DNA of 64,000 nucleotides, from contig NZ_LT703001.1 in the NCBI RefSeq assembly GCF_900149705.1, forward strand, positions 2,418,001 to 2,482,000. The letters run 5' to 3'. Each line of letters starts with the position of its first letter. The first letter of the stretch is position 1. Below are positions 45,008 to 47,982 of this stretch, piece by piece. The position numbers and the translations under genes are program-made. Below the pieces are notes generated by a model, which was given only the letters and a program-made list of their open reading frames with translations, did no database searches and was not told where the DNA came from. Origin of the DNA: Sphingorhabdus sp. Alg231-15. GTDB taxonomy: Bacteria; Pseudomonadota; Alphaproteobacteria; Sphingomonadales; Sphingomonadaceae.

Positions 45008-46600
45008 ATGACCGAGAATATTAAAATCAAACGGGCGCTGCTTTCGGTTTCCGACAAAAGCGGCTTGGCAGAGCTGGGCCAGCAACTCGCTGCCATGGAT
45101 GTGGCTTTGATCTCTACCGGCGGCACGGCAAAGGCCTTGCGCGATGCCGGGCTTGAGGTTTCCGACATTTCCGATGTCACCCAATTTCCCGAAATGATGG
45201 ATGGCCGCGTGAAGACGCTGCATCCCAAAGTCCATGGCGGCCTGCTCGCACGGCGCGATGATGCAGGCCATGTTGCGTCGATGGAGGAGCATGACATTGC
45301 CGGAATCGATCTGGTGATCGTCAATCTCTATCCCTTTGCCCAGACCGTCGCCAAAGGCGCCGAGCGCGACGAGATTATCGAGAATATCGACATTGGTGGA
45401 CCGAGCATGGTGCGCAGTGCCGCGAAAAATCATGATTTCGTGACGATTGTCACCGACCCGTCGGATTATGATATGTTGCTTGCAGAACTCAAAGAAAGCG
45501 ATGGTGCAACGAGCCTCAACTTCCGCAAGAAAATGGCCGCCAAAGCCTTTGCTGCCACCGCCAGCTATGACGGCATGATCGCACAATGGTTTGGCTTTGC
45601 CGATCAGCAACAGATGTTCCCGCCGACCCTGCCGCTGACCATGAGCCAGCCAACCGAACTGCGCTATGGCGAAAATCCGCACCAGATGGCGGCGCTCTAT
45701 CTGCCTGACGGTCCGTCCGCGAAAGGCATTGCGCAGGCTGAACAATTGCAGGGCAAGGCGCTGAGCTATAACAATTATAATGACGCCGATGCCGCGCTGG
45801 AACTGGTCAGCGAATTTCGCGATGGCCCACCGACGGTGGTGATCGTCAAACATGCCAATCCTTGCGGCGTGGCGAGCGGTGACAGCATCCTGGAGGCCTA
45901 TAAAGCCGCTTTGGCCTGCGACAGCGTCTCGGCCTTTGGCGGGATCATCGCGGTTAACCGGCCCCTGGATGGTGCGGCGGCCGAAGCCATGACCGGGATC
46001 TTCACCGAAGTCGTTTGCGCGCCTGATGCCGATGCGGATGCCCGCGCGATTTTTGCGAAGAAGAAAAACCTACGCTTGCTGTTGACCGGAGACCTGCCGG
46101 ATCCGGCCCGCGGCGGCATCGGTCTGAAGACGATCGCGGGCGGCTATCTGCTGCAATCGCGCGACAATGGCCAGATTGCGGAAAGCGACCTCAAATGTGT
46201 GACCAAGCGTGAACCAAGCGCCCAGGAAAAGGCGGATTGCCTGTTTGCCTGGACCGTCGCGAAACATGTGAAGTCCAATGCGATTGTCTATGCCAAAGGC
46301 GGCTCCACTGCCGGTGTCGGTGCGGGGCAGATGAACCGGCTCGAATCCGCGCGCATTGCGGCCTGGAAGGCGAAAGACGCGGCGGAGAAAGCGGGTTGGA
46401 GTGAAGCGCAGACCATCGGGTCGGCCGTGGCATCTGACGCCTTCTTCCCCTTTGCCGATGGTTTGATGGCAGCGGTTGAAGCGGGCGCAACGGCGGTGAT
46501 TCAACCCGGCGGTTCGATCCGCGATGATGAGGTTATTGCGGCGGCGGACGAAGCCGGATTGGCGATGCTGTTTACCGGGATGCGCCATTTCCGGCATTGA
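45008..46600 (+). CDS. purH: Bifunctional AICAR formyltransferase/IMP cyclohydrolase
   Basis: 530 residues from ATG 45008 ([19 protein letters not shown]). IMP cyclohydrolase: [44 protein letters not shown]. Transformylase: [26 protein letters not shown] (KHxNPCG), GVGAGQMNR and [10 protein letters not shown]. The last two steps of IMP synthesis. The length fits the family. The 3' region has a degenerate hairpin repeat. Confidence 0.97.
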
Positions 46601-46716: not shown

Positions 46717-46836
46717 CTATGCCGCAATCGAAGCTGCATTGATTGCGGGACCAAGGCTGAGACTGGCCAGGATCAGCGCCGACGAAACAGCTGCCGTTGC
46801 ATTCATAATTTTGGTGCGGATTTTCAGATAGGACAT
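46717..46836 (-). CDS. 39-residue hydrophobic peptide, downstream tandem paralogue
   Basis: A 39-residue open frame from ATG 46836 to TAG 46717. It begins MSYLKIRTKIMN; residues 13-39 are hydrophobic and small (SSALILASLSLGPAINAAS). AGGAAC sits 8 bases before the start. The next frame upstream (46869-46988) is exactly as long and aligns without a gap: MS at the start, SA at 19-20, PAIN at 30-33, A at 35. It could be a small membrane peptide or a secreted one; the PAINA end looks like a cleavage or processing site. No family recognised. See also the LysR gene at 47095. Confidence 0.65.
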   Translation of the reverse strand: MSYLKIRTKIMNATAAVSSALILASLSLGPAINAASIAA

Positions 46837-46868
46837 AATCGAAGTTCCTTTCACATGTGAATTATCAG

Positions 46869-46988
46869 TTAAATCATCGGTGCGGCGGAGTTGATAGCAG
46901 GGACTATGCTGGCGCTAATGACCAGAATCGCAGAAAAAATTGCGGCAAATGCGGATAGGGTGTTGGCTTGGATATTGTGATCAGACAT
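46869..46988 (-). CDS. 39-residue hydrophobic peptide, upstream tandem paralogue
   Basis: A 39-residue frame from ATG 46988 to TAA 46869 (MSDHNIQANTLSAFAAIF... ending PAINSAAPMI). AAAGGAAC stands 7 bases before the start, and the leader ATGAAAGGAAC nearly repeats that of the copy 32 bp downstream. The N-terminal 10 residues are polar, the rest hydrophobic. The pair probably forms an operon, divergent from the LysR regulator (106-bp gap). Function unknown. Confidence 0.65.
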   Translation of the reverse strand: MSDHNIQANTLSAFAAIFSAILVISASIVPAINSAAPMI

Positions 46989-47094
46989 AATTTGGTTCCT
47001 TTCATTCTGTGTTGATGGGTCCCATATATCTAACCATATTTGATTTGATAATTCCAAAAATTTGACTAAGCTTATTCATTTATGGATAGGTCGC

Positions 47095-47982
47095 ATGATC
47101 AAAGCGCTTGATTGGAATCTCCTGCAATCCTTTATTGCGGTAAGTGAGCATGGTTCGTTTTCGGAAGCCGCGCGCGCAACCCATGGGAGCCAGGCGACGC
47201 TGAGCCGGCATATCTCGTTGCTCGAAGGCCAGCTCGATACCCATCTATTTGATCGCGCCGTTGGTGGAACGGAACTGACCTCCCGTGGGATGGAAGTCTT
47301 GCAACATGCGCTGGCCATGGCAGATGCCGCCGGCAGGTTGTCTCTGGACATAGAGGGCCATGAAACCAACCTTTCAGGCACTGTGCGCATTACGGCTACC
47401 ACGGTCACATCGACATTCATCTTGCCGTCGATACTTGCCGAACTCAGGCGTGAAGAGCCTGAAATTGATGTTGAACTGATAGCTTCGAACAAAACCGATA
47501 ATCTCCTCAGGAGAGAAGCCGATATAGCGGTCCGAATGTACCAGCCCACGCAAGCGGATCTATTCGCCCGCAAAGTCGGTGAAACAGGGTTTGGTCTGTT
47601 TGCTGCCAATTCTTATTTGGAGCGGAACGCGACCGTTACGGCTCCAGACGATCTTCTGAATCATGATTTTATCGGATTCGACAAAAACGACCTTATCATC
47701 GAGGCTCTCAAACGGTTTGGCCTGGATGTCGATCGCGAGTTTTTCGCATTCCGATGTGATGATCAGGTGGTCTGCTGGAATATGGTTTTGCAGGGTTACG
47801 GGATCGGGTTCAATCAGCTGGAAATTGGTGAAAGGGAACCAAAGGTTTCTCGGATCAATGTATCGGTTGAGCCCAATCCGGTGCCCGTTTGGCTCGCTGC
47901 GCATTCAGAGCTGAAAACAAATCCCCGTGTCAGAAGGGTCTTTGATTTCCTTGCGAACAGACTGTCGGGCATGGGCCGTTAG
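47095..47982 (+). CDS. LysR-family transcriptional regulator
   Basis: 295 residues from ATG 47095 (MIKALDWNLLQSFIAVSEHGSFSEAARATHGSQATLSRHISLLEGQL), with GGATAGG upstream. The winged HTH is followed by the LysR substrate domain (LSGTVRITATTVTSTFILPSILAELRREEPEIDVELI). It is divergent from the pair of 39-residue peptide genes, so it may control them (inference). The effector is unknown. Confidence 0.93.
   Translation: MIKALDWNLLQSFIAVSEHGSFSEAARATHGSQATLSRHISLLEGQLDTHLFDRAVGGTELTSRGMEVLQHALAMADAAGRLSLDIEGHETNLSGTVRITATTVTSTFILPSILAELRREEPEIDVELIASNKTDNLLRREADIAVRMYQPTQADLFARKVGETGFGLFAANSYLERNATVTAPDDLLNHDFIGFDKNDLIIEALKRFGLDVDREFFAFRCDDQVVCWNMVLQGYGIGFNQLEIGEREPKVSRINVSVEPNPVPVWLAAHSELKTNPRVRRVFDFLANRLSGMGR

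Follow-up and report, generated by a model that had tools for sequence, protein, structure and literature searches.

Introduction

The phage-shock protein (Psp) response, which protects the membrane, has been widely studied; to our knowledge its effector step is still unclear. Short hydrophobic genes, some of them in tandem, also encode the type I toxins, such as Ldr, Ibs and TisB. In Escherichia coli, the regulon of PspF and sigma-54 (pspABCDE and pspG) has small membrane products, and PspG is called an effector in the opening parts of the abstracts of PMC2763126 and PMC3068692. Passages of a survey of psp genes (PMC11237479) describe variants of pspFABC, duplicates of PspB, and an Alphaproteobacterial variant. 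A further group, the stress-induced small membrane proteins exemplified by YohP, have fewer than 50 residues and are often raised in unfavourable conditions, according to part of PMC12719787.

This study focused on two short tandem genes and the LysR-type regulator gene divergent from them in Sphingorhabdus sp. Alg231-15, within a stretch of 64,000 nucleotides that was analysed as a whole and is referred to as the window. The family to which the pair belongs is like the E. coli Psp regulon in having sigma-54 promoters and predicted small membrane products, with PspF as the putative activator, but differs in that genes for peptides of about 40 residues are arrayed in tandem at several loci and in that a peptide gene comes first, before pspA. 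The abstract openings of PMC2763126 and PMC3068692 describe no such arrays, and no pspA-leading peptide, for E. coli. The peptides are likewise unmentioned in passages of two surveys of psp genes (PMC11237479, PMC9239133), and the strings 'Sphingomon' and 'small protein' are absent from the main texts of both. The likeness to YohP-type proteins is one of size and membrane nature, with no homology claimed, and the sphingomonad genes differ in lying in tandem behind sigma-54 promoters. The evidence presented below makes it quite likely that the two peptides are single-helix inner-membrane members of a membrane-stress family governed by PspF and sigma-54, and that they represent a LysR-associated branch with neither the sigma-54 promoter nor the enhancer.

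The gene pair and its LysR-type neighbour

The features of the locus are as follows, in window coordinates.

46717-46836, minus strand: peptide B, second gene of the pair, 39 aa, MSYLKIRTKIMNATAAVSSALILASLSLGPAINAASIAA, hydrophobic; an ORF with the Shine-Dalgarno (SD) sequence GAAAGGAAC
46869-46988, minus strand: peptide A, first gene of the pair, 39 aa, MSDHNIQANTLSAFAAIFSAILVISASIVPAINSAAPMI, hydrophobic; an ORF with the SD sequence GAAAGGAAC
46989-47094, no strand: divergent intergenic region, the probable site of a LysR operator and of both promoters; conserved blocks in four aligned genomes
47095-47982, plus strand: LysR-type regulator, 295 aa, PF00126 and PF03466 (the scan began one codon downstream); putative controller of the pair

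A sequence-only reading of the window had described the geometry of this locus, and re-measurement gave the same values: exactly 39 codons in each gene, a gap of 32 bp, common residues at MS, S19-A20, P30-A31-I32-N33 and A35, a copy of GAAAGGAAC in the leader of A and of B, 5' of each start, and 106 bp between the start of A and the start codon of the LysR gene (47095). In an ungapped alignment A and B are identical at 15 of 39 positions, and none of 10,000 shuffles reached the score. The likeness is not due to chance, since the same genome carries five more copies and other genomes have the conserved pair as well. The proposal of a real duplication, in which the two genes have stayed equal in length and carry their own ribosome sites, was borne out, and judged from their sequences both ORFs are genuine genes. 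The next gene 3' of B is purH (plus strand, ending at 46600), which is convergent, so that the pair has no directly following co-directional gene.

Orthologues of the LysR protein with at least 75% identity were found in four of the 32 genomes of the genus (G000, G029, G024 and G007), each with the pair, and a scan of named genomes added a fifth, also with the pair, in an uncultured Sphingomonadaceae isolate (3-525; L247). Conserved pairs beside a LysR gene, as foreseen by the sequence-only reading, are thus present in five of five genomes, the window included, and in four different surroundings: next to purH twice, and in a different setting in each of L094, L109 and L247. At an E-value of 1e-50 the LysR protein has matches in six of the 32 genus genomes; the next-best of these (49%, in G004) has no pair upstream, and weaker matches at 39-40% occur in G004, G024 and G030. 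A protein search of plasmid records with a relative of A returned no match.

The LysR-type pair is under selection at the protein level. The low Ka/Ks ratio that had been anticipated was found wherever it could be measured (dN/dS of 0.03-0.23), that is, in comparisons with dS near 1 or below, the others having a dS above 1.2 or undefined. For peptide A the values were 0.12 (window against L100, the G029 orthologue), 0.23 (window against L094) and 0.10 (L094 against L109), and for peptide B 0.03 (window against L100) and 0.19 (L094 against L109). Mean identity among LysR-type pairs is 0.70 at position 1 and 0.68 at position 2, and 0.42 between positions.

Linkage and the conserved intergenic DNA, which includes blocks such as TTAG.CA.ATTT.TGGAAT..TCAAATCAA.TATG in the four aligned genomes, suggest that the LysR protein probably controls the window pair. 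Of the four LysR-type clusters, two are followed by a convergent called gene. The other two are followed by a called ORF in the same direction, at distances of 34 and 319 nt, and may there be part of a longer operon.

A family of short tandem genes in sphingomonads

The five further copies in the same genome lie in two other tandem clusters, a triplet (L016: 2956-3078, 3110-3229 and 3266-3385) and a pair (L017: 3006-3125 and 3157-3276), and belong to the same family as A and B. A first profile (A1, seven rows, E 0.1 or better) matched all 32 genomes of the genus, with a best E-value per genome of 2.5e-10 or lower, and 33 of 119 genomes of the bacterial family, own genus included, where many of the weaker matches may be due to chance. 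A second profile (A2, 27 rows, E 0.01) matched 61 of 296 genomes at the order level, all 61 from the same family and including some other sphingomonad genera, so that profile detection beyond the genus is patchy. At the class level A2 matched eight of 289 genomes, namely the genome of the window and seven others with weak matches (E 0.003-0.01). Class-level matches beyond the Sphingomonadaceae were rejected as chance after six of the seven were rechecked (L238 was left out): five are ORFs of 142-451 residues that lack a sigma-54 site of at least 10/12, and L235 has no in-frame start.

None of 27 family members matched a Pfam model at E 0.01 or better, and none matched an NCBIfam model at that threshold, perhaps because the peptides are so short. 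No paper on the family was found by title or abstract opening in the open-licence literature, and one may exist outside it. The family is previously unnamed.

Sixty-three clusters were read, comprising 60 regions chosen from the genus and family matches together with those of the window, L016 and L017. Represented among them are 20 of the 32 genus genomes, some incompletely, and seven genomes of other genera. At least two copies are present in 60 of the 63, and one recognised copy in L127, L130 and L134. Many of the genus clusters with sigma-54 promoters sit in recurrent places, which define three types:

Type C: in the vicinity of an SDR gene
Type D: transcribed divergently from recF (TIGR00611); a short pspC (PF04024) and the gene of a CDF cation transporter (TIGR01297) are also present
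Type E: adjoining a phosphomannomutase-like gene (PgmG, NF046027; scanned in L247)

The neighbours of each type were checked by profile in one member; over the whole study, profile scans of neighbours covered recF, the CDF transporter, the SDR, PgmG and purH, and psp genes in L185 only. Crude ORF calling placed the short pspC directly after the array in 16 of 20 type D clusters, and no psp genes were among the neighbours called in types C and E. In L247 (2626-5361) the LysR-pair cassette adjoins the phosphomannomutase-like gene, the place held elsewhere by the type E array, as if it had been swapped in.

Since pspC or pspA lies downstream in some clusters, the peptides might be leader peptides that attenuate a downstream gene and have no function of their own, and in a number of clusters the next called gene does run in the same direction (17/20 type D, 11/23 unclassified and 2/4 LysR-type). 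Such an explanation is highly improbable, because the next gene is convergent in the window (purH), in 9/9 type C and in 6/7 type E clusters (as it also is in 3/20 type D and 12/23 unclassified clusters), and because the genes are present in tandem copies and the LysR-type pair is under protein-level selection. Within type D clusters mean identity is 0.71 at position 1 and 0.68 at position 2, against 0.51 between positions; positions 1 and 2 are thus conserved separately, which suggests hetero-assembly of the two peptides.

Sigma-54 promoter, enhancer and leader

A sigma-54 site scoring 10-11 of 12 was found in 59 of the 63 clusters, 68-82 nt upstream of the first ATG (in L126, 51 nt), and in typical arrays of two to five copies the promoter has the form TGGCAC-N6-TGC. 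Over all these loci, sites scoring at least 9 occur at 0.13 per 250 nt, the true sites included. The four clusters in which the site is missing are the window, L094, L100 and L109, all of which adjoin LysR; their genomes (G000, G029, G024 and G007) are those in which LysR orthologues were found among the genus genomes, where clusters were read in 20 of 32.

Upstream of the sigma-54 site there is a double inverted repeat. A 36-bp matrix of this enhancer, trained on 49 genus clusters, has the consensus AtaCcAAAagTTgGtAaAaTTTcCCA.TaaTCgGTT and recovered the element in nine of ten clusters from other genera, 64-65 nt from TGGCAC, where 0-1 of 1000 mononucleotide shuffles scored as well. The enhancer was absent from its usual place in L126 (45 nt; 72 of 1000 shuffles as good). 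For the window pair, scans found no sigma-54 site, and the best score for a Psp-type enhancer in the intergenic region was -7.4, equalled by 65 of 1000 shuffles. With neither promoter nor enhancer, the window pair is classed as a relative of the putative Psp regulon members and not itself as a member.

Leaders were compared for 59 clusters, 15 new loci and five psp loci, with the start site placed from the promoter position. A stem of at least 5 bp beginning at +2 to +8 is present in 69 of the 79 leaders, and the median folding z-score is -2.7. The 5' stems comprise 42 different strings; the stem thus persists although its sequence varies. The psp leaders fold weakly (four of five stems are shorter than 5 bp, and all five z-scores lie between -1.0 and +0.7).

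A structured 5' leader before short, hydrophobic, tandem genes would also fit small type I toxins of the Ldr/Ibs/TisB kind, silenced by antisense RNA. The sphingomonad arrays differ from these in having one recognised sigma-54 promoter per array, before the first gene, along with strong SD sequences and linkage to psp genes, and in the genus genomes that were read their synteny is recurrent and the positions within them are distinct and conserved. A toxin role is accordingly thought quite unlikely.

Linkage to psp genes

In the genome of the window, pspF (363 aa; PF00158 from residue 20, and PF02954) is divergent from pspA (PF04012), which is followed by genes for PspB (PF06667) and PspC (PF04024). 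The interval between pspF and pspA carries a sigma-54 site and an enhancer like those of the peptide clusters, and the first gene of the pspA operon specifies a 60-residue peptide (...SVLLFSLTILISAVGPAEAQ...) with a family-like hydrophobic-GPA signature. Among the seven pspA loci examined first, five (G000, G001, G008, G088 and G125) have a sigma-54 site and a small ORF, and the other two (G082, G099) have no sigma-54 site by the pattern used. All five of these pspA promoters carry the enhancer, 64-67 nt before TGGCAC (0-1 of 1000 shuffles as good); none of them was used in training the matrix, although three of the five genomes are from the training genus.

At 28 further pspA loci of the bacterial family, pspA is preceded in 17 by a sigma-54-like site, an SD sequence and a hydrophobic ORF 39-59 residues long (a raw count, without a shuffled control); eight have no site, and three have a site with no ORF. 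The enhancer scores above 0 bits in 15 of the 17, at 43-89 nt. Of 13 pspA loci taken at the class level (one of which, L283, is in the own family), three have a hydrophobic small ORF, which by eye is unlike the family, and in those three the enhancer was not found (scores -11.6 to -20.9).

Linkage was also assessed at 23 independent loci (L210-L215 and L217-L233) from genomes outside the building of the profiles. L232 was dropped before this comparison, being a 97-residue chance ORF with no sigma-54 site. All 22 remaining loci have psp genes in the fetched flank of about 1.5 kb (tblastn, E 1e-4): eight with recF divergent and pspC following, three with pspC only, and eleven with pspA. A sigma-54 site of at least 10/12 lies within 450 nt in 15 of the 23. 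Seven independent loci have, by eye, TTGGCA(C/T) with a variant -12 element; the promoters of L221, L222, L223, L226, L228, L230 and L231 read TTGT or TTGA there, not TTGC. The peptide family therefore combines a sigma-54 promoter, an enhancer shared with pspA and linkage to psp genes, the features expected of Psp regulon members.

The shared enhancer and the linkage suggest that PspF drives the sigma-54 clusters. Another enhancer-binding protein could do so instead, the psp genes merely sharing the neighbourhood, and the genome does encode eight strong matches to sigma-54 activators, PspF included. Against this, the same 36-bp motif is found at a near-equal distance between pspF and pspA, and a family-like peptide heads the pspA operon; an activator other than PspF is considered unlikely.

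These findings also alter the status of the window pair. The view that it forms a real system with its LysR regulator held in so far as the genes are genuine and LysR-linked, but they turn out to be a single branch of a wider family with ties to psp and sigma-54, so the pair probably did not originate as an independent LysR system.

Properties of the peptides and proposed function

The 142 peptides read range from 27 to 49 residues, by the start choice of the script, with 74 of 39 residues and 42 of 40. The single 49-residue peptide is probably an error of start choice, since the L131 version has 27. Longer relatives, of up to 66 residues, lead the pspA operon and bring the overall range of the family to 27-66. 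A 19-residue window with a mean Kyte-Doolittle value above 1.6 is present in all 137 peptides of at least 30 residues, which supports the suggestion of the sequence-only reading that these are small hydrophobic membrane peptides; a membrane location is probable on these grounds. AlphaFold, given an input of five sequences, modelled peptide A as one helix (residues 2-38, mean pLDDT 79.7). Of the 137 peptides, 49 carry the higher net charge on the N side, nine carry it on the C side and 79 show no difference, a bias that gives a weak hint of an N-terminus-in orientation.

Conservation centres on the hydrophobic stretch with its S-x-GP(A/G) motif, and the tail is variable and nearly absent in the 27-residue members. 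This leaves the earlier alternative of exported peptides cut near PAIN unsupported. In that alternative, the genes would encode bacteriocins of the leaderless two-peptide kind, or signalling peptides, and the products would be secreted. This could be argued from the tandem arrangement of at least two peptides of about 40 residues, from a hydrophobic core that ends in small residues like a signal peptide, and from the psp-operon relatives, which have longer tails after an AxA-like site. The lack of conservation in the tail speaks against it, as does the convergent next gene in 9/9 type C clusters, which leaves no exporter or immunity gene in the operon. Position-wise conservation across genomes is also the opposite of bacteriocin diversification, and a secreted product is thus regarded as very unlikely. 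Among the recurrent neighbours, which include recF, the short pspC, the CDF cation transporter, the SDR gene and PgmG, no recurrent exporter was seen by eye, profile scans having covered a minority of the neighbours.

The membrane-stress reading, in which A and B belong to the PspF/sigma-54 family, can be put as follows. The family would normally be switched on by PspF and sigma-54 within the phage-shock response, a loss of membrane integrity or of proton-motive force causing PspF to release a burst of peptide. The output would be expected to be high, given the stem-loop and the strong AAGGA ribosome sites. The peptides could then insert as helices with the N-terminus in, oligomerise through an Ala/Ser-rich face, and help PspA and PspC to restore or seal the bilayer. 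This would be in keeping with one relative leading the pspA operon and another array preceding the short pspC beside recF. A role in sealing or stabilising the membrane is suggested by analogy with the known role of Psp proteins (abstract openings of PMC2763126 and PMC3068692). The window pair would come under the divergent LysR regulator, which probably controls it and would itself answer to a small molecule.

It could be speculated further, and more tentatively, that these genes constitute an unrecognised arm of the phage-shock response, in which tandem arrays at multiple loci supply position-specific, single-helix peptides that come together in the inner membrane with PspC and PspA and seal it, and that the window branch has been re-wired to LysR so as to answer a chemical signal instead of damage. 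We regard this extended scheme as possible and somewhat short of an even chance. Peptides multiplied under what seems to be the same enhancer offer a simple, deletable set of candidate effectors. Because the peptides of the LysR branch are not tied to the stress signal, what they do to the membrane could be studied apart from the other components of the response. The family is also an example of a conserved regulon of several genes that goes unmatched by Pfam and NCBIfam models.

Some minor observations concern individual loci. In G125, what seems to be the same array is found twice in one genome (L128, at G125:C1:1412926-1413292, and G125:C1:3127092-3127594), with members of 27-35 aa that end in VGPGxIV and match scores that are equal or near-equal. 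In L126 (G099) an array of three copies and another of two are separated by about 1.3 kb, and their first two peptides are near-identical, probably the result of a recent tandem duplication. In the genome of the window, 3' of pspC (L185:3452-5177), there are six small ORFs in a row, of 76-109 aa and with a membrane-like segment; most have a repeated C-terminus of the type '...E(R/K)I(V/A)TD...', and by eye they resemble repeated PspB-like genes.
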